A DNA stretch of 64,000 bases from Sphagnum magellanicum (Eukaryota > Streptophyta > Sphagnopsida > Sphagnales > Sphagnaceae): NCBI GenBank assembly GCA_021904315.1, contig CM038912.1:24774949-24838948 (forward strand), written 5' to 3'. Below the pieces are notes generated by a model that did not search any database, was not told the DNA's origin, and saw only the letters and a program-made list of their open reading frames with translations. Positions 18,403 through 62,916 of this stretch are shown here, one piece after another (position 1 is the stretch's first letter; each line of letters begins with the position of its first letter). Made by a program: the position numbers and the translations under genes.

Positions 18403-18407
<5 letters not shown>
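15684..18407 (-). CDS. FLOE: FLOE-like DUF1421 prion-like protein (three exons)
   Basis: Exons on the minus strand are 18407-18108, 17367-17104 and 16811-15684. Both introns are GT-AG and phase 0, giving 563 residues. Start: the first ATG after the GA-repeat leader, reading MDAFGGGSSS. Residues 1-100 are Ser/Gly/Asp-rich. About 128-225 form a predicted coiled coil (heptads from TMKKYADNLL to LQLEKLQLNV) split across the second intron. About 235-500 are strongly Pro/Gln-rich with poly-Pro and poly-Gln runs. Residues 504-548 hold the C-terminal DUF1421 domain, UBA-like, with a MGF motif, and the protein ends in GWFGRG. This order (disordered DS-rich, coiled coil, QPS-rich, DUF1421) is that of plant FLOE proteins; Arabidopsis FLOE1 forms water-responsive condensates that influence seed germination. 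Role here is inferred from family; the paralogue type (FLOE1, 2 or 3) cannot be set. Confidence 0.92.

Positions 18408-18451
<44 letters not shown>
18408..18451 (-). promoter_or_regulatory. (GA)n tract in the FLOE 5' leader, abutting the start codon
   Basis: On the coding strand an uninterrupted (GA)n run of about 44 bases ends immediately before the ATG at 18407. GA-rich leaders are common in plants and are bound by GAGA-binding BPC factors. The run also keeps the frame open upstream with Arg-Glu codons but contains no upstream ATG, so initiation at 18407 is preferred. Confidence 0.65.
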
Positions 18452-18454
<3 letters not shown>

Positions 18455-18775
18455 CAGAAACCCTAAAACCCTAAGTTTGCAATAACACTTCTTGCGTTCT
18501 CAAAACTCTACCAATTCTTCTCGTGCGGAAGCTCTTGCTTTCGTTTTCTTCTTGAATAGAGAATTTGCAACAATCTCTCTCTAGGTGCCGTGCTGTGCCA
18601 CGCGCGCATGGGGAGGTCGGCTATTTTCCCAGCAACGACGACGACGACGCAAAGACGCGCTTGCTTTTGTATCGAGGAAAAACGAAGGTTCCCAGACGAC
18701 AAAGGGATCGGTGCTTGCGCGGATTTGAACCCGGAACCGGTGTAGCCAAAGTGGCGATCATCCAGAAAATAATTT
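18452..18775. other. FLOE upstream region
   Basis: Probable promoter and 5' untranslated sequence of the minus-strand FLOE gene. It is less AT-rich than the surrounding intergenic DNA and contains GACGACGACG-type repeats near 18640. No clear TATA box is seen. The foldback element at 18776 begins only about 370 bp upstream of the start codon. Confidence 0.45.
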
Positions 18776-24477: not shown

Positions 24478-25443
24478 ATGGACAACTCATAATCAAACAT
24501 CGATCTCACTCAAATCCTCGCCGCCCTTTAGCACCTTCAACAAGAAAATGTCGTGCTTAGAGACTCGGTGACCCGCCTACAGAATCAGCCACCACCTCCT
24601 GCCCTAGTACTTCCTGCTCTTGCAATGGTCACCCCAGAGCCCAAGATCAGTCTGCCAGAAAAGTTTGATGGAACACGCCTCAAATTTCGAGGCTTTGTTA
24701 GCCAGGTACACCTGATCATGCAACTACACCCCCGTCGTTATTTTGATGACACCACTCATGTAGGATTCATTGGAACCCTACTCACTGGGACAACTGCAAC
24801 ATGGTTTGCTCCCATCCTGGAAACATCATCCCCTCTCCTACAAGATTTCAACGCCTTTATGGCGGAATTTGAAGCAGTGTTTGGGGACAATGACAAGGCC
24901 AGGACTTCAGCCAACAAGCTACATCACCTCCAGCAAAGGACACGTTCGGCCATCGTATACACCTCAGAATTCAAGCAACTTGCCTGCGACGTCAATTGGG
25001 GAGAAGCTGCCTTGATTAATTAGTTTCGCTGTGGGTTTCGTGATGATGTTCAAGATCTTTTGTTGACACTCGCAGACCCTTCTTCCTTCAATGAAGTTAT
25101 CACCCAGGCAATTTGGTGCGATAATCGTCTCTTCGAACGTCGCCAGGAAAAGAAAGTCACCTCCAACGCCCGGCTTTGGAACAGTCGGCCTACTACGCTC
25201 CCCTAAGTTCCTCAAACAACACCAGTTGCCCGACCTGCCTCTTTTGGACCTACTCCGATGCAGATCGACACAACTAAGTTTAAATCTTTGACAAAAGCCG
25301 AGAAACTTCGCCGAAGGACAAACAATCTATGTCTTTATTGTGGCAACCCAGGGCATACAGCTTGTCAATGCCCTCAAAAGCTTGTCAAACTTCAAGTACA
25401 AGCTGTGGAAACTCCCCAAGAGTTGGAAAACAAGAACATCTAG
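24478..25443 (+). pseudogene. gag of the chromovirus, interrupted
   Basis: Capsid/nucleocapsid frame of the Ty3/gypsy type. The likely original ATG is at 24478. In-frame stops lie at 24490, 24529, 25021 and 25204, and the frame ends at 25441. The stretch 24640-25020 encodes a retrotransposon-gag capsid domain (PEKFDG, then a tryptophan-containing LTGTTATWFAP segment). A CCHC zinc knuckle, CX2CX4HX4C, is encoded at about 25330-25374. The last part overlaps the start of the protease frame, consistent with -1 frameshifting. It cannot make a full Gag protein as it stands. Confidence 0.88.
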
Positions 25444-27560
25444 TCACAGTAGGAGCCGTGCGACTGGATCTCACCCAACACCACCTTTGCAAAGGCTCCT
25501 GTTCCGTCGTTGGTCCCAGTCCCAGTTTCACTCAGTATGTGGACATCATTCGTATTCCAAAAGACATACCACAAGTGTCAGCTTTGGTGGACTCCGGCGC
25601 CACCTCTTCTTTCATCGACCAAACATTTGTCGTCCAACATAACATCCCTGTGATCAAGAAGTCAACCCATGTTCCGGTAGAGGTTATTGATGGGAAAAGC
25701 ATTGCTTCTAGTGCAATCACACACGAGACAACCCCTCTAGAACTCTGTATCGGCAAGCACACGGAAAAGATTGTTCTCAACATCATTTCCACCCCTCACC
25801 ATCCCATCATCCTTGGTTTGCCTTGGCTAGAAGCACACAACCCTATCATTGATTAGCGGTCTAAAACCCTCACCTTCAGCGCACAACAGTGCACCTCTCA
25901 AGAACCCCACGCTCAAAAAAACACTTTGTCTAGTCTTGCCAAGAACCATGTGGTCAAGAACCCAAAGAGGGTCGGAACCAATTCCAGTTTTCTCAAGTCT
26001 GTTATGTCAAGTCCTGTAGTTAAGAATCCCCAGTTGGTCAAAACTAAACCTTGTCCTGTCAAGAACCTTGTCAAGAATCCTGCCCAAAAAACCAACCCTG
26101 TCCAGATCTTCGTTGATAGAGCTGTCCCTTTCTATCGGGCTGCTAAAAATCTTCAAGTCTTCGCCATCCATGTCAACCTAACCAACAACACAAACCCCCC
26201 ATCAGAACCAACACCTGTCAACCTTCTCGAAAAATATAAGGACTTTGTTGATGTTTTTGAAAAAATTAATGCTGATCAACTCCCCGCCCATAGTCCATAT
26301 GACTGCCCGATTAATCTAGAAGAAGGACACTCACCACCCTTTGGTCCTATCTATGGCCTATCAGAACTGGAACTCCAAGCCCTGCATGATTACCTTACTG
26401 AAAATCTTGCCAAGGGTTTCATTCAGCATTCCAAGTCTCCAGCCGGCGCCCCAATTTTGTTTGTCAAGAAGAAGGATGGCTCCCTTCGATTCTGTGTGGA
26501 TTATCGTGGACTCAACAAGATAACCAAAAAGAATCGATATCCCTTGCCCTTGATTTCAGGTCTCTTAGATCGACTACGTACCGAAAAGATCTTCACCAAG
26601 CTTGACCTTCGTGGAGCCTACAACTTACTCAGGATTCGTCCCGGTGATGAATGGAAGACAGCTTTCCGCGCACGCTACGGCCACTTCGAATACACGGTCA
26701 TGCCCTTCGGCCTCACCAATGCACCCGCAGTTTTTCAGCATCTGATGAATGATATCTTCCGGGATTACATGGACGAATTTGTCGTGGTCTATTTGGATGA
26801 CATTTTAATCTTTTCCAAGGACCAGGAAATCCACGATAAACATGTACGATTGGTGCTTACGACGCTCCGAGAGCATGGTTTATACGCCAAGTTGGAAAAA
26901 TGTGAATTCGACAAATCTTCAATGGCGTTCCTCGGCTACGTGATCTCTCCAGATGGCATTTTCATGGACAAGTCAAAGGTCGAGACCATCCAGTGTTGGG
27001 CTACTCCATCCTCGGTCAAGGACGTTCAACGCTTCCTGGGGTTTGCCAACTTCTATCGTCGGTTTATCAAAGGCTACTCCAAGATCGCAACACCATTAAT
27101 AACCCTGACTTGCAAAGACAAGCCCTTCTCGTGGAACCCAACGGCCCAGGCTGCTTTTGATACTCTCAAGATGGCATTCACTTCTGCACCCATCTTGATA
27201 CATCCCGATCCTGCCAAGCCATTCATTGTGGAAACGGACGCTTCAAATTTTGCCTTGGGAGCTATTCTATCTCAATTTGGAATAGATGGGTTGCTGCATC
27301 CAGTTGCTTTCTATTCACGGAAGTTAACCAGTGCCAAAATCAACTACCAGGTCTACGATAAGGAACTCCTGGCAATCATCACGACATTCGAGCAGTGGAG
27401 ACTATATCTTGCCGGAGCTCAACATCGAGTCCAAGTTCTGACAGATCACAAGAATCTCCTTTATTTCACAACTACTCGGACCTTAAATCGTCGCCAGGCA
27501 CGTTGGTCTATTTTCCTAGCTGATTTCGACTTTGAGATTCAGTATCAACCCGACACCTAG
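25329..27560 (+). pseudogene. pol, first part: aspartic protease, reverse transcriptase and RNase H
   Basis: Frame -1 relative to gag. The aspartic protease active site DSGATSSFID is encoded from 25590, followed by the hydrophobic ILGLPWL motif. A stop at 25854 separates it from a 544-codon open stretch (25926-27560). That stretch contains the reverse transcriptase domain with FCVDYRGLN, MPFGLTNAP and the catalytic YLDD box at about 26789, then the RNase H segment with ETDASNFALG near 27235 and TDHKNL near 27448. The polymerase core itself looks intact. A stop at 27558 ends the frame. Confidence 0.93.
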
Positions 27561-29183
27561 CAAGGGAAAGCTGACGCGCTATCTTGTCGTTCAGAATATG
27601 AACTTTGAACGGGGGATGAGGCGTACGGTCAGTAGAACCAAACTTTACTCAACCCCGAGCAATTTCGAGTTGCAGCAACAATCAGCACCCTCCCAGACTC
27701 ATACCTTGTCAGGGACATTAAGATGGCAACTGAGGAAGACACTTGGGCTACCAACATCAAAAAGGAACTCTAGGAACGACCAAGGAACCCAAATCGTGAT
27801 GACCTGGATCAGTTTGAGCAGCAAGACGAACTTCTCCTTCGAAATAACCTGATTTATGTACCTGAAGGACCTATACGCCTAAAAATCCTGAGAGAATGTC
27901 ACGACAACACCCTGGCGGGTCACTTTGGAATAGCACGGACTCACGAACTAGTGTCAAAGACTTATTGGTGGCCCAAAATGACAGAGCTGCTACGGGAGTA
28001 TGTCAAGTCTTGTGATACATGTGCTCGATCCAAGGCTCCCAAACATCGCCCGTTTGGACTCCTACAACCTCTGTCGATTCCTAGCCGACCTTGGGGATCT
28101 ATTGCAATGGACTTCATCACGGACTTCCCTATTGTCAGAACCAAGAATTCAATACTGGTTGTGGTTGATCGACTCACCAAAATGGCCCATTTCACCCCTT
28201 GTTCCAAGTCAATCACGGCAGAAGAGACAGTTCAGTTAATTCTGGACGGGATCGTCCGACTGCATGGACTCCTCGAGGAAATTGTGTCCGACAAAGGTCC
28301 TCAGTTTGCATCCAAGTTCTGGCATCGTCTATTTGAGCTTCTTAAAGTTGACATTCGGCTATCTTCAGCTTTCCACCCCGAGACAGATGGACAAACCGAA
28401 CGGACAAACCAGACACTCGAGCAATACCTTCGCTGCACTGTGAACTACCAACAGGACGACTGGCTGGACCTACTATCTCAAGCAAAGTTTGCTTATAACA
28501 ACACAACACATGCATCAACCGGGATCAGTCCATTATTTGCCAATTACGGTTTTCATCCCAGGTTCAGCCTTGAAATTCCTGGAGACTCCGTAAACCCTTC
28601 GGCTGAAGAAAGGGCCACGAGGCTTGGACAGGTTCAACAAAACCTTATGGCAAAACTCAAGCTAACACAGGAGTGGCAAAAGAAGCAAGCAGACCGCCGA
28701 CGCAAGGACCATCCAAACTTCAAGGTTGGAGACAAGGTCTGGCTTCTCAGAAAGAACATTGCTACCACTTGCCCATGTGCCAAGTTGGATTACAAGCGCC
28801 TCGGACCTTTCAAAATCGCCAAATTGGTTGGTCTAGTGGCTTGCCAGTTGGAGCTTCCACCCCAATTCAAAATCCACAATGTTTTCCATGTCTCCCTGCT
28901 TGAGCCCTATCATGAAAACCCGATCCCAGAACGTCATCAAGAACCCCCAGCTCTAGTCGAAATTGAAAGCCAAGAAGAGTTTGAAGTTCAGGAGGTCTTG
29001 GACTCTAAGAAGATTCGTGGAAAGCTCCTGTACCTTGTCTTTTGGTGAGGTTATCCTCCTTCTGAAGCTACTTGGGAGCTTGCTAGAAACCTAGTTCATG
29101 CCCAAGACTTAGTTAATCGGTTTCACCAACGGTATCCTAACAAACCGGCTCCATCTGGAAGATGTCGCTTGAGGAGAGGATAA
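27561..29183 (+). pseudogene. pol, second part: integrase and chromodomain
   Basis: Same frame as the reverse transcriptase. The stretch 27561-27950 contains several stops. It includes the HHCC zinc-binding region (AGHFG near 27915, CDTCARSK near 28012), followed by the integrase core with MDFITDFP, SDKGPQFAS and a distal Glu region. The C-terminal part carries the GPFKI and HNVFHVSLLEPY motifs, then a chromodomain at about 28970-29110 (EVLDSKKIRGKLLYLVFW), where a stop at 29046 interrupts the usual FW.GY block. The final stop, 29181-29183, abuts the 3' LTR. The chromodomain marks the element as a chromovirus; in that group it targets integration to heterochromatin. Confidence 0.92.
29171..29180 (+). 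promoter_or_regulatory. Polypurine tract
   Basis: GAGGAGAGGA lies three bases before the 3' LTR and is the expected plus-strand primer. It overlaps the last codons of pol. Confidence 0.75.
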
Positions 29184-35939: not shown

Positions 35940-38900
35940 TTACCTTGACATGATTAGAGCTTCAAGAAACTCATCCACATGTGCAAGACATGGCCAATGG
36001 TCAGTCCGTATTCGCACAAGCGTGGACCAATCAGAGACCTCCATTTTCAGTAACAGGTGGTACCGGGGGGGTAGAAAAATAAGCACAAGGAAGGACCCAA
36101 GTCCACCCTTGGTGCTCTCTTCCAGCCCCCATGGTCCCAACCCTCCTCCTTCACTCTGATCTCGTATATACTCCAGTCGCAACTGGGTACCTTCTTCACG
36201 GTTACTACTTGCTGGTGCTCCTCTTCCCCCCCCTCTCGAATCAAACAGAAACTCATCCTCCAAAAACTTTGCATGCTTGAATAATCCACTGTCATGGGCC
36301 ATTGCAACCAATGAAGTCCCCATAACTGCCACCACAAAGGGGGCTAGCCATTGCTCCACGGCCCCTACAACACGGTCTGCTTGGCCTTCCAACAGTTTCA
36401 CACTCTCTGAGCTCTCAATTGATACCCCTGCCTGGGTGGCACTATTCTTCAAACAGAAGGTCTCTGTGCCTAATCGTCCAGGACCGCTACAAGCCTCAAA
36501 AAGAGCGTGGAAAAGAGTAAAATAGTAATCGGAGTAGTTGTGTGGAAGAACATCCACGGGAACTGGCGCTCGTAAGAATAGGTCTTCAATGCCCACTGGT
36601 ATGGAATCTAGTTGCCCAGAAACACTGGTACCATCTTCATCAGAAAAAATGATCTTCGCATCCACCAGCGTTGGAACTGGCTGTCTTGGCTCAAGCTCTA
36701 TGATGATTGTCTCACTGAAAATGTCTTTGTCATCTTTTGCAGGTTCAACACGTAAAGCCTGGCTATGCCCCTCCTCATCATCAATCTCAACAGAATATGC
36801 TTCAGCTGTTTCCTGAGCTTTGCCTTTGCCTGTCCAGCGCCCTCTTCCCCCTTTCAAGACCTTGTCTGCAAAGACAGAATCAGGGCTCTCTGTTTCAGGC
36901 CTTTGCCACAGTTTCCGTTCAGGAGCTTCACTGAGAAGAAATGGAACATGAACTGATGGGATCTGACCATACAGCCCTGTTGAGGTGAAAGAAATCACAA
37001 CAGCATAAATGGCTGGCCATGCTTCTAGATTGCCAGAATACACATCAACTAAGTCTTCAGAATCGGAAATTCCATCTGCTTCAGCCTGCATGCGCTGAAG
37101 GGTTTCACCCGCGAATCTAAGCTGACATCGTATGTTAATTTTAACACCAAGGCCATTTCGAAAATCAGGTATCTCCTCAAAATGTTGCCGTAGGATTCCC
37201 AGGATTTCTGACGTTCGGGCATCCATGACACGTCGAACTGGCTCGGAATGTCGCCCTTCTTGGTCTTCAAAACTAGATGAGGGGTTGTCAATAATTATCA
37301 CCCCTTTTGTACTGCTGCCACCTTTTTCTTGATCAGTCCCATATTTCAATAGCTTCATTTCTTCTTTGGGGTGCTCACTTACCTCCTCCACCACAATCTT
37401 TGATAATCGCCCCACCAGTCCTACATCCTTATAGCCCCCATCTACACCAGTCTGGAAAGTGTTGTACAAGACCAATGACCACGAGTGACGGACAAGTAAA
37501 GAGTTCTCTCTTGTGAGCCGGATGTATGCCCCAACCTGCAGCTGGTAGAAAGACACAAAAAATAAATTAAAAGCATTTCTATGCACAACAAATGGATTTT
37601 TTTTTTGAGCACTGGTCTTACAACTGTTATACTACCCACAAGGTGTTCAAATGAGAAAATCATCTTGGCAAAACAAAAATATTGAGTACAATGACATAGC
37701 AATAATAGAGAGAAATGATACTAACCAGTAGCAATGGCTGGCGAGGCTGAGAACCAGCTGCGGATGGAGAGTGTAGGAGAGATGACACATTTGTGTACTG
37801 TGGGGCATTCACTTCCTCAACACGTTCATCACCATAACTCAACATTTCTTGAATGCGGTTTCCTGGAACACTTATCAGCATCCGCAAGTAAAGCCTGTTC
37901 ACAAGGGAAATTTGATTTCAGGCTCAATGTCTGGCAAAGTGTACATAGAACCTCCTGAGCTTGAACATCTCAATGTAATCAAATTACTTTCCTCTTCTCA
38001 ATTTGGCTCTACACAGCCTTCCAAGCACGTTGAACTGACTCATGCATATTTAGCGCAAGCATATCCAATGCCACTTGTCACATATAGGTACAAACACCAA
38101 TAGCCTTTGGTAGCCAGGATAAGAGGGGGAAAATACTTATCACAATTCTAACCAAAAACCAAGGGTCTTGCACAGCATCTGTTTTAAGGTACACTACAGT
38201 GCAACAAAAATCCTGGCACATGATAAGTATCCAAGTCAGAAATGGGTAACCAGAAACCGTTGACAGAACCCACCTAGCAGTGTCGCGCACTTCAAGATCT
38301 GGAAAGAATAGGCACATAAGAGAGAGCAAATTTGAGAGGCTTTGAAAAATTCGAGAGCTCTTGTGGTGCATAAGCACTGTCCGGCATATACCCAGCACCT
38401 AAACCCTCGAGACCATTACTATTTTTCCACCACCCCATTACTTCCATATTCACAAAGTACGTAAATTTCAGACCACCCACCAAAGGGACTCACACCCAGC
38501 AAATATTAGCATATAGCCAGCACCAGCAAACATTAGTTTGGCTGCGGCAGATTATAGAGAGAAGAAGACCATGGCTCAATCTCCACAACCAGTGACTTTA
38601 TACATTATGACTGAAACAAGTCCTCAGCAGAACTAGAAAAGAACAATTTCCTCTCTTCTTGATTGGCAGAAGAACCATAGTGAAAAAACAAGCAACAATT
38701 GCACTAATCACAAGTCCATTAGACAAGGCTCTAGCTTTAAAGATGAGAACCTTGAAATGAAGAGTGCCTGTATTTTCAAATAATCAAAAGAAAACTTACT
38801 GCCCAAATCAAGAATGTTTGTTTACCTGGCTTCCCCAAAGCCAAAGCTTCAGACCACCATCACCCTTGTGCTCTTCCACTCTCTTCCTTACATATATAGT

Positions 38901-40936
38901 AAGAAGCTCTAGTAAACCAACTGGGGGTATATCCACATTTTCTGCTAACCGTTCAATAAGTGGGAAATAAGCTGGCAGATTGCAGTTTGGTTCCAACTCT
39001 GGAAGCAGATCCTCATTAAAAGTTCGAAGAAGGTGCTCTCCCAAGCTTTGATGGGTATTGCACTCCATTAACCGATCCAACAAGGCAAGAATTTGTGGAA
39101 CCAAATACCGCAACTTCAAAGCCATCTTGACAAGAATGAGCTGAATAGTCTTGAAGAGGGATGAATCTGTGAAGGCAGCCACTTCCAAAGCAGATGATTG
39201 ATTCTTATGCGGAATCGCTGCCGTAAGAAATTTATGTAGAGCATGGAAGGTAGTGTACGTCTCTGTGCTTGAAGATGGAAGCCATGTGAAGGCCGACACA
39301 CATAGTAATCCTTCATCCAAAATCCTACTTGCTGGATCCACAGGCGAGTCACCTATTGCCAGAACTTTATAAAGGCCTACCCTTCCATTCCCTGGAGAGG
39401 ATGAAGTTTTGGGCTTCAGCTTGGGTTGTGGGTTTGGTGTTAGAGGAGGTGATTTTGATGCCAAGGGAGATGATGCTGATGATGATGCCAAGCTTGCCGC
39501 ACAGTGGGCCAGAGCCACAAGTTTAGCAGCCTTCAGTGAAAGAGGATCAAAGACAAGAGGATAGAGTCCAGAAGCTAAGGGGGCAATAACTGAATGCTTA
39601 TCCTTTTGAAGGTTTTCAACTCCTAGAAGCCAATGGACCCCAAGCAAGCGGACAGGCAGTGGTTGGTGTGTTTCCCGACAAAGATAAAACAATCTTTTAA
39701 GAATCACATCTTCATCCCCCTCAAATGCATCCATGAACTGTGAGTAGATCAAAAGAACTACATGGCACAATACAGGGCTAAAAGTGTATACTAGACTAGA
39801 AAATTGTGGCTTGAGTAAAGAGCCATGGAGGTTAAGTGCCCGTGCAATGTTGATAAATCTTGCAACAAATTCAAGCATCCCGAATTCCGTCAAAAGGTCA
39901 GATCGTTGAAGAAGATAAGCAACCGCTCTCTTGAACTCCTTCAAACTACCTGCCATGAAAATCCTTCACTTGGACACAGCATCATCATGGATATCATAGT
40001 CCCAAAGCTTCACTTCTCTCCTATATACTTGTAGAGCTCTTTATCTTTTCTCTTAGAAATCAACTTACACTCAGGGAATTCTCGCAAAGAATTGGGGTTT
40101 AAGATTGTGTTTAGGGTTTTTAGGATTTAGAGGAAGAGAGTATAGGCCAAACAGACAAAAAGGGTACCTGCAGTGAGCTCTTTTGCTGGGACTGAGAGAG
40201 ATTCCTGGCGCGGACTTGATGCAGCTAAGAATGGTGGCACCGAAAAGGGCACCAATGGGATAGTAATGGAGAGAAAGGGTTGCGCACCAGATGACCTTGA
40301 CTTGATTGTGTACATATGGCACGCCATGTTATGCAGTATAACAGTGAGCAAGATTTTGTAGCTCTGGGCTGCGTGCGTCCTCTCACTCTGACAAAGAGCA
40401 AACACGTGGCCCACACAGACATGTAGCAAACAGGGATGGGCCAATTCCAGCTCTCGAAGGCATTCGCACGCAGTCGCCCTGACGTGACGATCTGCCGCAT
40501 AGTTTGTTCTGCTGATAAACCCTAAGAGAATCTCCGTAAGCATCTCCAGCTGCGGAGTTGCAGTATGTATTGCATCTACAGTGATGGCTACAGTCGTGAC
40601 CATGACCATCATCTGCTCCTTCAGCGTATGGGTTATCAAAGACCCATCCACCGGAGCTGGTAATATATTGCGCAAAGACTCCACCAGCATACATACGCCT
40701 GCTACAGTGTCTGACCCGACCAAAAGCTCCGCATTCTCTTCCAGGAAGTTGAGGAGCTGTGGCTTTAGCGGCGACTCTTTCTTGGTGATCGATTGCAGCG
40801 CTTGATCGATGATGGTCAATCCCGGCCATGATGTCAACCATTTGTGTTGAAGATCGTGGGAAGTTCGAAAATCCTGTAACAACTGCTCCCAATCCGAAAC
40901 CAGCAACAACTTCCCACTACCTTTCTCTGCTGCCAT
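35940..40936 (-). CDS. AP5B1: AP-5 complex beta subunit (five exons)
   Basis: Minus-strand exons are 40936-40168, 39949-38826, 38359-38274, 37894-37726 and 37535-35940. All have GT-AG boundaries and agreeing phases, giving 1247 residues. The third exon's start rests on phase and an AG and is the least certain. Start: MAAEKGSG at 40936; an in-frame upstream codon adds a tail lacking homology. The N-terminal half is an all-helical HEAT-like solenoid, with ATACECLRELE at about residue 170 as in animal AP5B1. The C-terminal exon carries the appendage-like part, with WLAPFVVAV and the terminal RIRTDHWPCLAHVDEFLEAL (residues match the family C-terminus, supporting the stop at 35940). AP-5 is a clathrin-independent adaptor on late endosomes that works with SPG11 and SPG15 in mammals. 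In plants it is conserved but little studied. Confidence 0.92.
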
Positions 40937-42989
40937 ATCTCTCTTTCTCTCCGAGATGGATGATGCTCTGAAAAACCCTAACTTCTCCAAACACTGGAGA
41001 AAAACAAGCAGTAGTTCCGACACATGATCGATCAATCTCCTCTGCAATCTTCTTCAAAACCCTAATAAATTTTTTTTGCAATCTTGATCAACAACAGTAG
41101 GAGTAGCTGCCGGATGCTAATTGAGCTTGTTCTCCAAATCCCTGATTGCCTCGCTGGGCCGAATTTTTTTCACCTATCCTCCTCCTCCTCCAAGATCCAT
41201 CTCCACTGCAGTGATTATGGTCTGTAACTAACCTTTTCATGAAGGCGCTTCCTACTTCGACGGAGTGCATCATGTGGCCGTTTGACAAGCTCGACAGACT
41301 GCGATGTGGTGGCCATTTGAGGACACCCATTGGTGTGTTAGAGAGGTTAAGCAACTAGCCAACAACCTAGCGCACCATGCCACATTACATTATTGGCCTT
41401 GCCTACCAAGGCAAGCATATTGTGTTTAGATTCATTATAGAGTATGGTAGCTTAATGGATTTTGGCCCCTAGGTAATAATAATAGGTCTATTTTTATATG
41501 AGGATTTTTGAAAGATGCTATTTTTTTGGCTTGTGTTGAAACTTGAGATTAGTTTAGAGTTTTATGATATCTTGAAGGATTTTTGGTTTCTTCTGGAGGA
41601 TTTTTTTTGAAGATTATATTTTTGCATGGTGAAATATTTGAATTTTCATAATTCTTCTTTTGCCCTAAGATACTCCTTAATGTAAAATGGCAAGGCCATC
41701 ATGGTGTGACACACCCCTTGTTATTTCAAGCTGCAAGCGCAGATCAACCCTGCTGGTCGGATGGATGCTTTCTTTCCAACGACTCTTGATTGTGAATTTG
41801 TACCAATGTTGGACTGGTATCTACTTTTGAACATACCACACTAGTCCTGGTATTTGGGGGGTTTCTTTTTCTGTTTTGTTTTGTTTTGTTTTTTTTTTTC
41901 CCATACCTGGTATGTACTGGTAGGGGTACAATCGCCCATCACTGAACATCTAACTATCATCGAACATTTTCCTCACTCTCTCTTTAATCAAATTGACCGA
42001 TTTTTGTGTTGTTGGACATGCAAACTGGAGGGCTACAAATGTTCTTTCAGCGCCACAAGTAAAGGAGCAAAGAAAAAAGCACAGTAACAAGAACAATGAT
42101 AGTTTGCTTTCAAAATTTTGCAAAAATAGCTCTAGACCCCTCTCTAGTTCCGGCTCCATATCTTCCCCATTTTTTATCTATTTTGAGTGATTAAAAACCT
42201 GATGGGTGTGTCAACTAGAGCTTTACAAAAAAAAAATTTAATTGATGAAAACCTATCAAACAATGTCAATAAAACAAAGCACCCAAAAAAGGGGGAGAGA
42301 AAGGTACAAGATGGAAGGACCCAAGTCTAGGCAAAAAGAGGGAACCATCAATGAAGGTGAACTGCAAGGGGACTTGAACCCCTTTCATTGTAAAGAGCAT
42401 ATGAGATAAAGAGAGTGGAGGAACACTTGAAAAAAACGTTTAGTTTAAAAAAACCTTGCCTACAACAACAACACATTTCGAAATAGAGATTGCATCAAAT
42501 CGTTGTAATGCCATCAACATCCTCTAGTTGTAAAATGGACACAAAACCAAAAGAGGAGGGCTCCTACAACCTTTTTCGCTCCATGTCATGCTCAATGGGG
42601 ACACTAGTGAAAAAAAGTAAAAAATATGTGAATAAAAATATAGAATGCAATATATTGATTGTTAGGTAGAAATTATAAATTAATTAGTTTTAAAATAGGG
42701 TACATTTTATTCAAATAATCAATTTAATTATAATATAAAAATGTAATAATATGAAATAATGGATTATAATTAATATAAGGTGGCTTTAATATGTATATAT
42801 TTAAAAAATTAAAATTATAGGGTGATAAAAAAATAGGTTGGACAATTATTTAATACCCCTTTAAAAATGGTTGTTTGACACATGTAGATCCCAAACCTTA
42901 CATTAAATGTCCCCCCAAAATGCTATGTTGGCACATTGATGAAAAAAATTGTCAACTTGCTAATGCAAACACCCAAAGATTTATATGGT
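40937..42989. other. AP-5 beta upstream region and intergenic DNA
   Basis: 40937-41060 is the probable 5' leader of AP-5 beta; an in-frame codon near 41047 precedes the chosen start. 41088-41354 has open frames but no recognised product. At 42361-42378 a minus-strand 'GGGGTTCAAGTCCCC' resembles a tRNA T-arm, but no full cloverleaf is present. The remainder is AT-rich and empty. Confidence 0.4.
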
Positions 42990-47026: not shown

Positions 47027-48230
47027 CTTATTGAGCAATTTTCTAATTCTCTTTAACAAAATCTCTAGAGGGAGGCCTTTATTTTTCAAAAGGATAATAA
47101 CATCAACCATTTGAGAAACAAAGAATCTTTCACAAGTACGAAGTGTCACAAACTCATAAAATTGACTATTGATAACTCCCAACTTAACAATAATTGAGAT
47201 ATTGGAATGAGCATGAGGCATACAAATCATTTAAATACCTTCATACTTTGGTTCAGAACATTTGACAAAGATATCACACAATATACCTTGAGGACTTAGA
47301 TTCATAGCTAGATCCAAGAAGTTACAATAGAAGCCTTTAGAAATACAATTTAACTTACAAGATGTTTTTGGGTATATGCCACTGCCAAAGGAGTGTTGGT
47401 CTAGGTACATGAAATTCTCCAAGTCTGGAAAATCAGGAATGACAAGATCTTTTACAAACCTACAAACAAGGGACAAACTATGAAGCACAACAGGACATGT
47501 GTTATTCTTCAAAAGATGCTTTAGGAAATCAAACTCATAGGAAAAAAGATAGAAATTAGCCAAAGAGACCTCACAATTAGCACCCATGGAGATACCAGTA
47601 CATTGTCTATAAGCACAATGACCAAAACAAAGAGACAAATTATCGAGCAAGAAATCCAACCAAGAGATCAAGTCTGAAGCATCTACAACTTTAAAGCTAT
47701 GAAAATTTTCTAACAAACTTATCTCTTCTTTATTTTTCAGCCACAAAAATCTAAAGTTCAAAGCAGATCTTTCAACCAACAAAAACTTAAAACAATGAAG
47801 CTTCAACATCCAATGAAACACTTTTATTGATCAGAAGTTTCATACGAGCTTTTAGATCCATTAGATCAATTTTAGTGTATAGTGTTGAGAAATCAAAAGA
47901 CTGCAACAGGAGAGGAGAGGTTTTATGAACTTCTGATCTAGAAAGATTCAGTTGTTTTATTACATCCACTACTCCTGTAAAGTTATTGAGAATCCAACTA
48001 ACACAAGGAACATCTGCCTTTCTGAGCATTGACACCCAAAGGTCATTGACCATAAGAAAAATAGCTTTATAGAAAGAACTCAGCCACTTAGAAACTTCAG
48101 TAAGAGAAGTAGAGCTGGCTGCACAAATGAATCTAGGTTTAATTGAATTTTTATGAAACTTCCAAACAGCACAAAGAAATGGAAGCCAAGGAAAAAAGTT
48201 TGAAAAACTAAATGAATATAGGTATTAACT
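47027..48230 (-). pseudogene. Penelope-like reverse transcriptase relic
   Basis: On the minus strand, three overlapping frames (48230-48060, 48053-47787, 47821-47027) give a nearly continuous reverse transcriptase. Landmarks are FICAASSTSLTEVSKWL, then FDFSTLYTKIDLMDLKARM, then CTGISMGANCEVSLANFYLF, then RFVKDLVIPDF, then FLDLAMNL, and SNISIIVKLGVINSQFYEF. The 'DFSTLYT...GIxMGxxC...RFxDD' signature is that of Penelope-like elements and close relatives. The catalytic box reads FVKD at about 47440-47460, so an essential Asp is lost. One frameshift lies near 47800. No GIY-YIG endonuclease was found on either side. Family assignment rests on motif memory. Confidence 0.68.
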
Positions 48231-53091: not shown

Positions 53092-56000
53092 ATGTCTTCG
53101 AGAGTGATAGAGAGTTCGATAGAGGAGTCGTCTGCGACCGCTTCTGATAGCAAAGAGTCGTCGAATTGGGGGACAACTACTCCTTTGAGCTTGCCGCCGT
53201 ACAAATGGTGGGAGAGGATTCGATTGCAGGTGGAGGCGTTGTTCAAGGCTTTCACACTGTTGGACAAGCAGCATCAACTGAAGCAGATCGCGGCCAGCCA
53301 ACACGTTCTGAAAACGTATCACGATTCCTTCCTCTTTGGCAAAGTTCCTCTTTCTGTGAAACTGCGAGCGCTTCTTCGGACTAGCACCGTGAGCTTTGTG
53401 TGGCACATTGTACATACCCTCTGTACCATGACCTTTTGTAAAACTCAGTCATCCACACGACTACTGTATCCACACTCCCAGATAGAGACAAACTAGTGTG
53501 CCGATGGTTTGTTGGAAGCAATCTTGGACGTTGTCAATGCAGTCTGAAAGCAGGCCATTGTCATAGGGGTTAGGACCAGTGTTCTTTTTCTTCAAATTTG
53601 TGAAATAGGTGGGTTGGCAATCATCCACAAGAGGACTTAGCCAAACTTCGGTACAGGTCAAAGAGGAAAGTAGAAAAAATTAGGATTCCTCTTACATTTT
53701 GGCAACATGTTGGAACCTATTGTCTAGATATGGCGACTTCAGATTTTTTTCCCTCATAATGTGGCAACTTGGGCCATTTTTCCCGAAATATGTCCTTTGT
53801 ATCATTCCCACCTCCATGCAAGAAGAAAAAACACTAAGTTAGGACTCATTGTAATGTCAAGTTGCCAGTCATTCTAGTGCTCAAACCACCACTACTGAGT
53901 TGCATGCTGCATCTTACCCATATTTAACCTCTAGTCTCACAACCTCTTGGGAAGAATGAGGTAATGTGTTTCTGCCATCCCTCTCTCTCTCTCTCTTCAA
54001 ATATAGTCTCCAGTCCCCCACCTTCAACAAAGGGGCAGAAGAGCTCTGATGAGGGTGCAAAGTAACCCAGGGACTCTTATCTGCCAGAGATGATGGCAAT
54101 TTTCATTTGACAGGCAAATGCATGTAAAGAAAATTGCAACTGGAGCTTCTCCATCGGTGTTTCTCATATGAAAGCTGAATTGAATGCTATGGATTTGACA
54201 TCCATATCCTAGAGGTGTTCAGTACTGTTGTGATTGTGGTAAATACATGGTTGATGGCTTGGCGTTATTTTGTCTTTTCTGCTGCTTTTGTCAAGATATC
54301 TCTACCCTTGGCTCTGTTTCATGGGCTAGAGAATTGCCAGTTTTCCACCTTTGAGTCTGCAATCAAATTGAGTGAAGCAGAACAGTTTTCATCATGAAAA
54401 TAGGGATCAACCTGTATCTAATTTTACTTGTGTATCTGAGATGGTGTCACAGCTCCTGGTTTTCTGTCTTGTGTTTGTTGGTCCAAAGTGGTGTTCTAGA
54501 GCACCAGCTGTCTCAGTGTTTAGGTCTGTTCATAGCCACCTCTCACCAAAAAGTGATGTGGCTTGTTCCAAAAGGTGAGCAAGTGCTGACTGCGATCTTG
54601 CACATCACTGCTACATTCTCCTGTGCAGAGGTTACTATCTGCAACCCTGCCCACTTTCTTTCATGGTCACATTATGTAGAACATCTTCTGGTACAACAAA
54701 CCCTCTGGGCTTTGTGTGTACATCTGAGATAACCACTCTTTTCACTTATATGCTACCCTGATAACTATGTGCTTTGGTTAATCAAGCCTGCACAACAATC
54801 TATACATCTTGATTTGTGGGGGTTTTTTGTGTCATATCTAGGGCTTTTTACTTCTCCAGTCATACATCCATTGTTCTGGGTGGTTCTGTCTACTAGTGGT
54901 GGAAATACATGAACACATTCCAAAGGGTTAACCCAATAAAGAAATGGAAAGTCCTCTCAGTGACTTTGTTGTCTTTACAGCAGCATTTCTGGTCTTTGTG
55001 AGCTGATAGATTCCATAGTGCTCCCCAGATTTGGGTTTAAGCTTTGAGGATGAGTCCCAGAATATCAGTGCCTGTGAGCCCTCCTTATTGGCAAAATTTG
55101 TGTCATCAACTGTTGATGGCAAATGATGCGAGCCAATTATTAGATAGTGAGTTGTTCTGCAGTCACAAGCTGAAGTCAGTTTGAGCTTAGTAGCCAGATC
55201 CCGGAGATGACCACTATGCTGCATAGATAGGAACTTGACATATTGCAAGCCAACTGATATGGGTCTTGGAAGTGCTGCAGATGGAGGGCTTGCTTGCTAT
55301 TTTGTCTGGTGCTGTGTATATATATACCACGTAAGTTTATTCATAACAAACTGGTTGTCTGTTATGATTGACACTCATGTGTTATGACTGCACTCATTCT
55401 TGTGTCAATGACTACAATGTCAAACTGGGTATCAGTTTTGAACCCAGTTTCATCTGTAATCTCAGACATAAGTTTATCCAAAAATAAAGGATATCAGTTT
55501 TTGAAGGTAGTCTTTATATGCAGGGGAAGAGGATATCTGCAAGTTCAGAACATGTTGGAGCACTTGTCTTCATATTGCTTGAATGTTAACATTTACATTG
55601 ATGTTACAGGTGATGTCTTGTGGTTGTGAGGGAAGTGTGAGGATCACTAGAGAACTGAATGATTGCCACTAGATTTAGATGTTGTAGTAGACATTTGAAA
55701 ATGTATTATAATGGCAGCAGGAGTCTTAACAGGTTTCTTGTGTGGGGAGCTGTGTTTGAGCAGCTACCACTTCCATGAGGAGCATGAGTGGGTGACACTA
55801 ACTCAGGATACTGTGAGCTGCTTATTTCTCATGGATTATGTTTTGCGTGTGTATAGGTGAGAATGAGCAAAGCAGTGTCATGTGTTATATAAAATAACAA
55901 TGTATATCTACTAAACAGTTAAGCTGGTAGCAAACAATAATGAGGAGTATAGCAACTCCAGCAGAATTTGGTTCTGAGATTGCATGCATATATTCATGGT

Positions 56001-59000
56001 TCACCATGATGTCTTTGGTTCTTTATTCAATCATGTAAAAACATTTGGGTCTGTGAAATGTAGATGTAAATTCTTGCATATTTGAATAACATAAATTCAT
56101 GGACACCCATGAAAAAAAATGCCAAGAGATGATGATTGCTACTGGTATGTCTTTGCAGTGAACCGGTGCGATTACAGTACATGTTTTCATATATTGGGGT
56201 CCTAGATTTTTTGAGTGCGACACCCATTATTTTTTTATACCAGTATGTTGGCTTTGGATTCCATATTCTTGTTGTCTGTTAGCATGATCGAATGGATGAC
56301 CTTGGATTGCACATCCCACCCCTTTCACTTTTGCATATCTTTACATCAAGCTAACACTTGTACACCTGTTAGCCCTGAAACTATATCTAGTGATGTTGCA
56401 ACCCTATTGGTTCTTTCTCCTCTGTCACATAATACTGGTGCACATGCGTTCATTTTGAGCCTGGCTGTCGATTTTCTCAATTTGTGGTGTCCACAAAGGT
56501 TTACATTTATCAACTTCTCCTTGCATGTCTCATGGTCTGACAGGCACAAGAATCCAGTGGGTGGTGCAGCTGTTCTCCACCTCTTGCAGTTTTCACGCTT
56601 CATCAGGTTGGAGTGTTTGTCTCTCTCGTACACTATTTGTTCATTCAATAGATAAGTCCAACCATCTTTTGGAATGAAGGATGAGGCCTCACTTGTGACA
56701 AACAGGTGGGTTTTGGTTATGCATCCATCCTCAGTTGAACATGGATAGAGAGGTGTTTGTCCTTGGTGGTCCTGACTCACCACCAATGCGTATGTTTGCC
56801 CTGACTTGTACCTGCATGGGTTTGCTTCACAGGATATTAACATTTCCAACAAGTGTAGGAATAGTGGCAAGCACAGTAATCGAGCAAATACTATTGTTAG
56901 TGGTATCCTGTTTTGGAGCTGGTGAGTGCTGTCATTAAGTGAGCCATTTGCTATATATGCCAACACCTTGATTTGCTTCTTCAAGATGGCCATTAATCAG
57001 AAATGCCAGAAATGCAAGATATCCACACCTACGTCCTTTGGTAAATTTTGTATGTCTATCTTTGGCTGAAGTTGTTAGGCCTCCTCCCAGGTGCTGGAGA
57101 CACACCTGAGCAGGTTTTGGTTGTAGTGCTGCCAAATATTTAAGTAAATGATTCCCAAGTCACAGCATTAAAAGGTCTGTAAGGATTGGTCGTATAAGAA
57201 TCGTAAGGGTTACTTGTGAGTGGGTGCAGTGTTCCTTGATGCTGGGATTGTACAGTGGATTGAGTATGCAGCAGCATCTGAACAGATACAACAGAATTGT
57301 CCCACAAGTGGCTGTATAAACTTTATGGATGCCTTCTATTATGTAGTTTCCACGGTATGGGTGTGCTGAATTTCCCTTTTTGCTGAGAAATACTCAAATG
57401 CATTGATGTGGGTTGCCCATGCTGAATAACAATTATGTTGCCTTTTGTGGTGCTGAAGATGAAAATTGTTCTTGACTTATATTAGTAATCCCACAGGGTG
57501 GAAAACATCCTGTCTCAGTGCTTGACATTGTTTTCACTTCATGCTTGCTCCTTCACCCAAGCCAAAATCTGCATTGTCTGACAGATTTCCACTGTTGGAT
57601 ATGGAGATGTCACAACCAAGACCAATGCAGGGAAGATTGTCTGCATTGTGACCATCATGTGTGCTCTGGTTTTCATACCGTATCAGGTTGCTCGCATTAC
57701 TCGTCTTGCATCTAGTAGGTAAAGCTGGCAACTACTATCCCTTCAGTCAAAATGTTTTCCATTCATACAAAGATGATAAGATATGCATCACATCCCTTCA
57801 GAATCTGGAGATACCAAACTCAAAACCTTCTTTTGATACCACAATGTATTTGTATCTGTCATAGCTGCTGACAAAGATGATCATTTGTTTCTGTTGAACA
57901 AGCTACTGATGGAAGTCAGAATAAGATGCTGGTGGATTGGTAGGTGATCTGTTGCTGAAGGGGATCTAGTAAAGGGGTTGTGAACTTCAGAAGCTAACAG
58001 TAAAGCTGTACATGTAATGCAGGCCATATGGAGGCACATTCAATGCAAGGAAGATTATTGGTAATAGATATCTCATCATCAGTGGAAGTGTCTCATTCCA
58101 GGCTGTCCAAATCTGTCTGGCAGAGTTTTATAATCCAACCCACTGTGATGGTTTGTGAAATTGTACCTTCTGTAGGTGTGTGTCTGAAAGTATACTTTGT
58201 GCCAACTCAATCTTCAGGATTGTTTATTAGAAAGATCCTCTGTGTTGTATTTCTGCTTGTAACATGCATGACATTTAATTCTGTGATCCTCAGTGGAGCA
58301 CTATATTGTGTGCTTTGTAGATGAACTAAACATTGGATAATGAGATAATCTCAAAGTTTTCCCCAACACCATCCTAGCATAAGGTAAGGCCATGACTTGG
58401 TACTGCGTGCATCTACAGATATCAAAGCTTACCCCTTGCATGTGAACATCTTGGCACCATTCATCCCGTCGTAAGTGGTATAGTGTCACAACCTTGAATC
58501 TGGCACCTGCACATGTGACTCAATAAATATTATTTCTTTCATAGTTGGGCAGCCAGCTGATGCAAGTTCAGTGGTTCCTGATTCTGATTGGCATTTCCCC
58601 TTTTTTACCAGAAGCATTCAATATCAACACTGCAAGGTGAAGCTCTAGAGCAGGCTTACATGTCCTTACTTGGCAGGTTTGAATTCAAAAAAATGCTGTC
58701 CCTCTACAATGGGCATGTAGAGTTTATGGAAGGGTCTCCAGTACATCAATCAGACCTAGAACGAGTGTGTGCATCTCATGCTGCAGCCATCTTCTTACTC
58801 GCCAATAAGCAAACCAACGTAGGTTGCTGCATGCTTTTAAAGTTTTTGCTTCATGCATCTGTTGACCATCGACATGACTCTCGGTTGTAAGGGTCTCTGC
58901 ATTTGTACCAATTGCAGCAGAGATTTGGTAAAGTTCCTATTCTTGCTGCTGCTATGTGGTGTCAGATTTATGATGCCCACCCACCTGATTGTCCCCTGGT

Positions 59001-62000
59001 CTCCAAACTGATGCACAGTTTGCTCATTGTCACAGGATACAAAGGTGGAGGATGCTGCACAAATAGTGAGAGCATTAGCAGTGAATCGACACTGTGGCAA
59101 CAAGGTGCGAATTATAGTAGAAGTGCTGGAGCCAGCAACACAAACTTGTGCAGTTTGGGATGAAACAGAAAGTGGTGCTATTGAAGTTATTTGTCCTGCA
59201 AAGATTCATTATAAGATGCTCTCCAGGAGGTTGCTCTCTCTCTACCCTTTGCCATGTCCACTAATCTGCAATCTGTTTGTGCTGTCATGGTTGTGTTTTT
59301 TTTGTCTAACAAGCAACCCTGCTGTAAGGGGCCACTTCATAAACTGGTCATCAAAAGTTGTGGGTAGAATGTGTCCTCCTTCAAGAGTGAAGAAACACTG
59401 AGTGATGGTTGGTCAGTAGAGTTTTGTGACTGACCAGTAGACAGTTTGGTCCAAGTATTGTGGGTATTTGATACTTCTGACAATATTCTTATAGGTCTGC
59501 CCTCTTTTTCTGAGGAATGCTCTTGCAGATTATGAAAGACGCAGGCTCAATGAAACTACATTGGAAGTTCCTTCTCTTTGATAAACCTCCTTTTTACATT
59601 CATTAATTCAGGGAACCTCCCTTAGTTTAGCACTCATGTTTAGCACTGTATTTGTGGATGGGAGAGCAGCTGTGTTGTGAGAGGGCTGTACACACTCATA
59701 ACTAATCTGTTTACATCAGAGATCAAGCTGAAAGAGTTGCCCAAGGATCATTTTATATCTGAATATTTCCACAGTTTTGACAACGAAGTCTACCCTGTTA
59801 TCTTTCCAATTGTCTTTCACAACATGCTCTTTGAAGAGGTTTCTTTCTGTCGCATCATTCTGTAGCTTCATACTTTTATCTATTCTTTTTCTAGAATTAC
59901 CTGTAGAGTGTCTCATACCCACCTAGGTGAGAGTATGTGGCACTTATTATAAGACTCTTTCCTCTGTGTCAAAGTGATTGGGACATTTCACAAGTGATTC
60001 TGGTTTCCTGGAAGATATCTTACATTGGATAAGATCTTGCAGGTAGCAGCATTTGTTTACAGGACCTTCAATGCTGTATTATTTGCACTGGACGTCACAG
60101 TGCTACACAAGGACAAGGATCATCATGTTCAAAAGGTATGTAGTTTCCACTGCAACAATATCAATTTCTTAAAGAGGTAGGCTTGATTATTCTGTTGCAT
60201 TCATTCCTCCTATTTCAGCATACATAGCAACCTTCCTTCGGTGTTTCAATAAACTATTTGCCAAAAGAAAATATTGTCAGACAGATCCCAGGTTTACTCA
60301 TGACTGGAGGAGTGCTACAAATGTTCATGGAATTATTACTTGAGTGATACACTAATAAGTGTAATAGAATGCAATGTTGTGCAGTTCATGAGGGCTATGG
60401 CTACTGTGTGACATTCAATGTGCAGTGACGGGGGAAGAATGGTCTATTAGGTGATTGTAGATGATTGTAGCTTTCTTTGTAGAGGGTTTAAATTGCCATG
60501 GACTTTCTTGTCCAGGTGTTGCTGCATCCTAAAGGTCACATCATTAACCCTTATGATGTTGGTTTAGTAATTGCATCGGACCTTCATACTGCTTACTCCA
60601 TCTCAAACTATCGAGACAAGCAACAGCAATTAAGTTTCATTGAAAAAGTAATGAATACAAAGCATGAATCCCAGTACATGCATTCTGCAGTAGAAAGGGA
60701 GGCAGAGAGTGTCATCCGGCGGCTGAGGCGCACAGGATCTTATACTGTGGGGACTTTTCATAGAGACTTACATAAAGATGAGAATGGAGTGGAGAAAAGT
60801 AAGGTGCACACTTTTCCAGTCAGTGCAGAGGGGCATTACAAGTTGGAATCAAAGCTGAGGTCAGCAATCTACCATGCCAACAATGAATGTCAGATTGAGG
60901 CAGGCCGTAGAGCACTTTCAAATTCAATGAACAAGCATGATGGAGGATATGATATGTCCTCATCTACCGGCATGAAGAGTGATGATGCCAGCAGTGGACT
61001 CCACCTCACGAGTTGTACACTAGAACAGGCAACTGAGGACTTACTGGCATGGCCTCCACTTCTGGACCATGGTCATCCTCATCCAGCAGTTCTTGAAAGG
61101 AGAGCTGATGTGATATTGGAGGACTTGAGACAGCACACAGTTTCTGTAGTTCAATTGGATGAGCCACATATTCTGGTTTGTTGCCAGAGGAACTGGCCAC
61201 ACCACATATACTACTTCATCAAGGGGCTACGGAATCCATTGTCTCCCACTCCACCAATTGTAATTCTGTACCCAGGTCAGCCAAGTGCTGAACAATGGGG
61301 TCTGGTGGGCGTCTTCACTGATATATATTTCATCAAAGGCTCCCCAATCTATGAGCTTGATCTCATGCGAGGTGGAGTTCTCCATGCAGGTCTATGTCTT
61401 TCCACTTCTGTATTTACATCCTTGTTCACCTTATGCTGAAAGTTGCTGCTGTCTGCTGTAAAGCAACTTGCTTGCTTTAGTTATTGCAAACTTTTGTTTG
61501 TACTTCATTGAAAAACTAATTCAGGTCAGAACTTGAGAACTGTGCAGAGAAAGTAGTGATCCTTGGGGATCAAGGTACTCCTGTTGATTTGCACGGACAG
61601 GAGGTGCAAGATTTGAGAAATGCTACAAGAATGTCAGCATATACTAGTGATGTGGATAATATACTGGTAGCTGCCAATGTGGAGCGTCTGGTAGGAGAAA
61701 AGCAGGAGATCCTACTGGTGGAGATGCATGATACCATTGGGTTCTTTTATTTGCGCCCCCAGTTTGAAATCTCTCGGAGTCAAGTCTGTGCGACTGACTA
61801 CAAGCGCAATCGGAATGCAATTGTTCACCTTGGCCCAACCTTCATGGGTGGAAAAGCTGTGTGTGCCATTTTTCTCGGTTTTCTGATGTAAGTACCATTT
61901 TTCTTTCCGTCTTGTTCTGCATATGGCTTATCATTTTACCCATATTTTGCTGGTGAATCTTAGGGCAACTCCACTGGTGCTCAGTAGGTATGTGACTCTG

Positions 62001-62916
62001 CAAATACAAATCAGATTAAGAAAAGTCGAAACCTCTTGGTTTGGCTTGGTAAAATGGTTTTGACCCAGGTTTTCTGCACAGTTTGGTGAGGTTGGTAAAA
62101 GGCACAGCACAGACTAACACCTCCCAGAGGAAAGTAATAAGTATGATCTGTGTGCTTCTCCCTGTTTTTGATTGGCCAATCATAATCATTGGTCGAGGTG
62201 GTTTACTATTAGTTTCCAACTTATTTCGAGTCCTATTAGTTATAGTTTTATGGATGGGGTTGGAAAAAAAAAAAAGTAAACTTGGATGTGAGAAATATTT
62301 TTGCAGGGTCACATACTGAGCACCTCTAGTGATGCTCTTAGCTGTGTTAGCAATACCTGATCTTGTGTTTCATTGTTTTTCTGTCTGCTCACCCCAGAAC
62401 CCTCCTCAAGCTGCTGGAGGATAAACTCTTTTCATTTGTAGCCTTGCAACTTACATCCCAATCTTCCTTGACAACCCTGGGTGAATATTCTCAGAGCAAA
62501 CTCTGACAAATTGCAAATTTTCTTTCCTACTGTCTTGGCATTGATCCATCACATGTTCCTCTGGTTTGACATTGATGAAGCAACAAATGATTGGAAAAAT
62601 TTGCAGGCGGTCATCATTCTTTAACCGGAACACAGTATCTATAGTGGAACAAATGGTGGAGGGAGGCTGTGTGGAACAAGATGGTTGCTTGGGAGATGAT
62701 CAATCACGTTTGCTGCAGCAAATTGAGGTGCCAATCCAATATGTGAATCACCAGTTCTGTGATCTCTTCACTGGCCTTCTGCGGGAGAAAGGCATTCTGT
62801 CTCTGGGCATATACCGTGCCTGTGGCACACTGGGATCTCCAACAGCATACGTGTTGACAAATCCTTTGAAGGAAACTATTATAAATGCTGGAGATCTTGT
62901 CTATGTGCTATGTTGA
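53092..62916 (+). CDS. Slo/BK-type potassium channel (multi-exon; S1-S2 exons unresolved)
   Basis: Exons supported: 53092-53388 (soluble N-terminus, MSSRVIESS), about 56455-56606 (S3-S4), 56833-56921 (S5), 57230-57354 (turret, pore helix), 57585-57718 (filter TVGYGD at 57591, S6), 58023-58150, 58419-58470, 58677-58818, 59036-59229, 59670-59838, 60043-60135, 60516-61389, 61530-61887 and 62607-62916. Every junction from 56606 on is GT-AG with matching phase, giving over 1030 residues. Two RCK domains follow the pore. RCK1 shows RYLIISGSVSFQAV, GHVEFMEGSPV, AAIFLLANKQ and SCVVRGLYTLITNLF. RCK2 shows HILVCCQRNW, IYFIKGSPIYELDL, LLVEMHDTIGFFYLRP and ends GDLVYVLC. This is Slo architecture: pore at the N-terminal side, tandem cytosolic gating ring binding ions such as Ca2+. 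No Asp-rich 'calcium bowl' is seen, so the ligand is open. S4 carries only two clear Arg (FSRFIR). Membrane-located; which membrane is unknown. Confidence 0.9.
53389..56454 (+). other. Channel introns containing unresolved S1-S2 exons
   Basis: Exon 1 ends in phase 0 at 53388 and the S3-S4 exon begins near 56455, so one or more exons for the first helices must lie here. Candidates are a hydrophobic run at 54215-54300 (VIVVNTWLMAWRYFVF) and another at 56247-56310 (LDSIFLLSVSMIEWM), but neither has splice sites I could confirm. At 53693-53775 there is a copy of the dispersed repeat seen at 13097, 19393 and 20117. A (CT)n tract lies at 53980-53996. Confidence 0.45.

Follow-up and report, generated by a model that had tools for sequence, protein, structure and literature searches.

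The window, by which we mean the whole 64,000-nucleotide stretch of Sphagnum magellanicum DNA that was analyzed, contains an intact Slo-type K+ channel gene at 53092-62916 on the plus strand, with 17 exons and 16 introns defined by GT-AG junctions and homologs. The gene model was built by joining landmark motifs through GT-AG junctions and then refined with homologs. It comprises 1085 codons, from an ATG at 53092 to a TGA at 62914-62916, with zero internal stops, and all 16 introns, which range from 158 to 1871 bases, are GT-AG; the original prediction had proposed at least 11 phase-consistent introns. The six landmarks quoted in that prediction were all located on the plus strand within the gene, starting at 57591 (TVGYGD), 58783 (AAIF(LLANKQ)) and 59668 (SCVV(RGLYTL)) and, on the RCK2 side, at 61347 (IYELDL), 62803 (LGIYRA(CG)) and 62890 (GDLVYV(L)).

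All exons lie on the plus strand. Exon 1 (53092-53409) begins at the start codon and encodes the N-terminus with a TYHDSFLFG motif and the beginning of S1; its junction is spanned by P0038, a deposited Sphagnum fallax model described below. S1 (MEGLLAILSGAVYIYTT) is encoded by exon 2 (55281-55330), supported by tblastn of moss and liverwort homologs and by P0038, and S2 (DTVSCLFLMDYVLRVY) by exon 3 (55764-55856), supported by homologs and P0038, where the helix was placed by alignment and falls under the hydropathy threshold. With P0038 supporting each, exon 4 (56159-56242) carries S3 (GVLDFLSATPIIFLY), exon 5 (56544-56606) carries S4 (LHLLQFSRFIR, including H194, R200 and R203), exon 6 (56833-56921) the S4-S5 linker and S5, exon 7 (57230-57354) the end of S5, the turret and the pore helix, and exon 8 (57585-57718) the selectivity filter STVGYGD and S6. 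RCK1 starts in exon 9 (58023-58150; NRYLIISGSVSFQAVQ), as indicated by the PDB match and P0038, and continues through exons 10 (58419-58470) and 11 (58677-58818; AAIFLLANKQ), both supported by P0038, and exon 12 (59036-59229), in which the S. fallax model takes an inner donor after 59104. The BK_channel_a region follows in exon 13 (59670-59838; SCVVRGLYTL, DNEVYP; Pfam and homologs) and ends in exon 14 (60043-60135; Pfam and P0038). Exon 15 (60516-61389) encodes the RCK1-RCK2 linker and the start of RCK2 (IYELDL) and is supported by homologs and by the best Pfam Slo-like_RCK stretch (residues 795-917), while exon 16 (61548-61887; homologs) continues RCK2 with a basic stretch (DYKRNRNAIVHL) where Slo1 has its calcium bowl. 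The C-lobe of RCK2 (LGIYRACG, GDLVYVLC) and the stop codon lie in exon 17 (62607-62916; Pfam Slowpoke_C and homologs). Two candidates were dropped during modeling: an end of exon 1 at 53388 (ACC/GTGAGC), as homologs and P0038 carry the exon to 53409, and a hydrophobic stretch at about 54200-54290 (frame 1) considered as S1/S2, for which exons 2 and 3 gave the better homolog match.

Elsewhere in the window, a Ty3/gypsy-type LTR retrotransposon with gag, reverse transcriptase, RNase H and integrase domains in several open frames occupies 24532-29048 (plus strand). An AP-5 complex subunit beta-1 gene lies at 35940-41053 (minus strand), with AP5B1 C-terminal, barrel and middle domains in frames at 35940-39965 and no Pfam match in its frame at 40127-41053. 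A further minus-strand gene at 15684-18470 has a DUF1421 UBA-like domain at 15684-16835; the upstream open frame at 17943-18470 had no Pfam match and may be the first exon of this gene. Two minus-strand open frames at 47231-48224 likewise had no Pfam match and seem to resemble the reverse transcriptases found in non-LTR or Penelope-like elements.

The Sphagnum fallax Counterpart

The first 454 residues of the predicted protein were aligned to P0038 (BDL97_06G130900; a cluster of 50 members) and proved identical at 442 of the 454 positions without a gap. At the protein level P0038 covers junctions 1-11 of 16 without a gap, and the last five are supported by homologs, exon 14 being found in P0038 as well. 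This model is only 488 residues long: it leaves exon 12 before its end, passes from there directly to exon 14 without exon 13, and has a different terminal exon. Both of the sites it uses are present in the window, namely the inner donor after 59104 and a possible alternative terminal exon at 60385-60411 on the plus strand (FMRAMATV, then stop), which would produce a comparable truncated isoform. P0038 may represent either a truncating isoform or an annotation error; given where it ends, through the inner donor and the exon skip, some of the transcripts may encode a protein that lacks the gating ring.

A rival reading is that the locus may be degenerating or regulatory and that its functional product would be the 488-residue form, consisting of the voltage sensor, the pore and part of RCK1, which could dampen a full-length paralog. 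In keeping with this, P0038 is the only near-identical deposited protein among the matches listed, where no full-length near-identical protein appeared, and the donor and terminal exon that it requires exist in the window. Against it, the complete 1085-codon frame is open, the alignment of exons 13-17 with their counterparts in mosses, liverworts and lycophytes continues to the end, and whole-protein identity to the moss proteins P0001-P0005 is 52-57%; such conservation would not be expected if the region were decaying, and we regard a solely truncated product as improbable. We consider it very likely, from sequence, that the locus is an intact nuclear peat-moss gene whose product is a Slo-family K+ channel pore subunit belonging to the plant BK2 subgroup, predicted to be voltage-sensing and to carry an RCK gating ring.

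Family Identity

S1-S6 were placed by alignment to homologs, and the K+ selectivity filter STVGYGD was found between S5 and S6 at residues 276-282. Five Pfam families scored above their curated cut-offs (Slo-like_RCK, BK_channel_a, Ion_trans, Ion_trans_2 and Slowpoke_C), with two further weak matches under their own cut-offs making seven in all at E up to 1. Slo-like_RCK matched in two stretches (114.7 bits), which places two tandem RCK domains after S6. A PDB sequence search with 931 residues, from S3 onward, gave Slo1 as the best match (E 6e-42) followed by Slo2/KCNT1 (9e-23) among the best 60 of 258 matches, so that a chance resemblance can be dismissed. For the Sphagnum paralog P0001 a structure was predicted, with low to moderate confidence (mean pLDDT 57, pTM 0.40), and compared with the PDB; the 50 best matches listed comprised 45 Slo1 and 5 Slo2 chains, three of the latter being named Slo2 solely through the PDB sequence search. 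The model is weak, with TM-scores by query length of 0.24-0.30. The original prediction of a Slo-family channel in a plant, with a TVGYGD pore, S6 and two tandem RCK domains in Slo order, is thus borne out by agreement of the PDB, Pfam and tree results.

A CASTOR/POLLUX or prokaryote-like RCK channel would share the general layout of pore and RCK domains, but none of the seven Pfam hits (E up to 1) belonged to such a family, and the protein takes a position inside the streptophyte Slo proteins in the trees described below. As those trees hold no CASTOR/POLLUX rows, it is Pfam and the motifs that set the channel apart from this family. Contamination by animal or microbial DNA is opposed by the same tree position, by the 16 introns and by the AP5B1 and DUF1421 genes and the gypsy element in the same window, and we take the near-identical S. 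fallax protein to exclude it, in line with what had been argued at the outset. We find either of these origins scarcely credible.

Placement within the Plant Slo Family

Two trees were constructed. Tree 1 held 40 rows, being the window protein and 39 of 56 retrieved proteins, including unnamed rows on long branches. Tree 2 held 37 rows, being the window protein and 36 of 163 retrieved proteins; BK1 and full-length animal Slo1 rows were added, and most unnamed rows and the Ectocarpus, frog and nematode rows were among those omitted. The sole outgroup was P0050, a metagenome channel with TrkA domains which was taken as bacterial and sits on a very long branch, and both trees carry a warning of long branches meeting. 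The window protein fell apart from this outgroup, in a streptophyte Slo clade of 23 of 40 rows in tree 1 (100/100) and 28 of 37 rows in tree 2 (91/92, branch not starred). Within it, a BK2 clade including the window protein, MpBK2A and MpBK2B was recovered with 16 of 40 and 12 of 37 rows (100/100 in each), and in tree 2 its members were MpBK2A/B, mosses, lycophytes and a fern. BK1 in tree 2 contained 13 rows (95/100), among them MpBK1, Physcomitrium P0034, the Sphagnum 01G and 05G proteins, lycophytes, a fern and conifers; tree 1 showed this split as well, though BK1 had fewer rows there. The positions of Chara and Spirogloea were not the same in the two trees, nor was the relative order of these two and Mesotaenium. 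By its position in the trees the channel is a member of the Slo family and of its streptophyte BK2 branch.

Within BK2 the window protein paired with Physcomitrium P0014 in both trees (100/99), apart from a second moss set of Sphagnum troendelagicum P0001, Ceratodon and Physcomitrium P0017 (100/99 and 100/98). This arrangement suggests two moss BK2 lineages arising from a duplication older than the split of Sphagnum and Physcomitrium.

Ceratodon purpureus P0003 (M758_UG342600, on a contig of 112 Mb) is, by reading of its tag, a BK2 gene on the U sex chromosome, and the tags of the related P0004 and P0005 point to chromosomes 5 and 10. In the lycophyte Diphasiastrum, P0066 and P0067 (O6H91_01G114300 and 01G114400) are BK1-type genes with neighboring tags and likely a tandem duplicate.

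Hallmarks of Slo1/BK Channels

The label "Slo/BK-type" that had been given to this gene holds for the Slo family; its BK part applies only in some respects, as the calcium bowl and S0 were each tested for and not found. In the alignment the window protein has one acidic residue among the 15 preceding the GPTFMGG bowl-anchor site, as against eight in Drosophila and fish Slo1 and five in Taenia Slo1. A DDDDD run was present in none of the 25 plant rows covering the bowl site (28 plant rows were aligned), where Mesotaenium, with five acidic residues, equals Taenia Slo1 and the others have 0-3. S0 was sought before S1 with a 19-residue hydropathy scan at a threshold of 1.3, a crude measure that also misses S2 of the window protein; the best 19-mer scored 0.96, versus 2.12 in Taenia Slo1. 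When ten further plant proteins were examined in this way (P0001, P0002, P0003, P0004, P0007, P0010, P0012, P0016, P0019 and P0034), P0016 alone had a pre-S1 segment above 1.3. A charged S4 is present, with R200 and R203 at a spacing of three and H194 where several moss relatives have their first S4 arginine. At the region of the RCK1 Ca2+ site, which in human Slo1 we take to be the D367 region, the window loop has a different length and is aligned without confidence.

These results bear on whether the protein is a true BK channel of the Slo1 type, in which voltage and Ca2+ act together to open the pore, as they do in animals. Both in sequence and in the fold of paralog P0001 the best PDB match is Slo1, and the filter, the order of the RCK domains, the RCK1 NE(V/M)Y motif and the charged S4 are all kept. 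Since neither the calcium bowl nor, by hydropathy, S0 was detected, the sequence gives no support to a Ca2+ response of the BK kind, and we judge a true BK channel unlikely. As no bowl was seen in the plant clade, the ligand of the putative voltage-sensing BK2 channel is probably not Ca2+ acting through a Slo1-type calcium bowl.

Distribution across Plants

Three protein searches were carried out, all of which need shared 5-residue words and consider a limited number of candidates. The first returned 32 proteins, with mosses, liverworts (MpBK2A, MpBK2B), lycophytes, ferns, Closterium and Ectocarpus named. A profile search at E up to 1e-10 returned 44, among which Chara, Cryptomeria and the Slo1 and Slo2 channels of animals were new, and a search from the sister branch at E up to 1e-20 gave 201 matches, of which the 120 listed added MpBK1, Taxus, further Selaginella and Diphasiastrum proteins, BK1 genes of S. 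fallax, and Slo1 of insects and fish. No angiosperm was named among the matches listed in any of the three (for the third, 120 of 201), as anticipated by the original prediction that flowering plants have no Slo. This agrees with loss in flowering plants and, given the word requirement and limited candidates of the searches, is not proof of it. Retention is not confined to seed-free plants, as the conifers Taxus (P0057) and Cryptomeria (P0065) have BK1-type members.

Nor is a Slo channel in a plant new, contrary to what the original prediction had implied, since BK-like genes were already in print in 2012 (PMC3410407) and 2024 (PMC11617655). In the 2012 paper, P. patens and S. moellendorffii are each reported to have two BK-like genes, a type described there as missing from flowering plants, and function and origin are left open (PMC3410407). 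BK counts in the 2024 review are two in Klebsormidium, one in Chara, three each in Marchantia and Physcomitrium, four in Selaginella, one in Picea and zero in Amborella, Arabidopsis and rice (PMC11617655). A cited preprint, by its title, describes a Marchantia SLO channel as depolarization-activated and pH-sensing. In a literature search on Sphagnum and BK channels, none of the eight papers listed out of 1,382 contained the word Sphagnum, which does not show that no such paper exists, and the name MpBK2 did not occur in the ten papers listed for it. The window gene adds a Sphagnum member to the known plant Slo/BK-like family.

Proposed Function and Significance

A working model can be outlined for the protein. 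Four subunits would assemble, depolarization would move S4 through R200 and R203, and the eight RCK domains would form a gating ring coupling a cytosolic signal to the S6 gate. K+ would then leave the cytosol, and the membrane would be repolarized or excitatory or Ca2+ events shortened. Candidate ligands are protons, another ion, or Ca2+ at an RCK1 site other than the bowl. More broadly, and as a tentative proposal about which we remain somewhat doubtful, plant Slo channels may form a separate, bowl-less ligand class in which BK2, with its two ancient moss copies, senses pH or another cytosolic signal, the class having been lost in flowering plants.

The gene model given here for a Sphagnum BK2 channel is complete and was checked by hand, and bowl-less plant Slo channels are naturally suited to testing which signals an RCK gating ring responds to. 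The published picture, in which Slo is kept in seed-free plants and a conifer and is without representatives in the flowering plants examined, is unchanged.

Comparison with Known Channels

The BK-like channels of Physcomitrella and Selaginella (Phy-pat-BK1/BK2 and Sel-moe-BK1/BK2; PMC3410407) belong to the same family and the same plant grade, and the trees set the window protein beside Physcomitrium P0014, although the genus differs. That paper speculates on an extra N-terminal helix (PMC3410407), whereas the window protein shows none by hydropathy. Marchantia MpBK2A and MpBK2B, so named in their source records, lie on the same BK2 branch, with 46-49% identity and the same Pfam domains, but represent a liverwort lineage with its own duplication. 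MpBK1 and the conifer BK1 proteins of Taxus and Cryptomeria are likewise streptophyte Slo channels in which no calcium bowl is found, but they belong to the sister branch, the one seen in conifers. Animal Slo1/BK channels (KCNMA1, slowpoke) resemble the window protein in the filter, S4-S6, the two RCK domains and the best PDB match, and differ in the calcium bowl and S0, which were not found in the window protein. Animal Slo2 (KCNT1), a weaker PDB match, is alike in having no acidic bowl at the aligned site, but has one aligned S4 arginine (two rows), whereas the window protein has two at a spacing of three.
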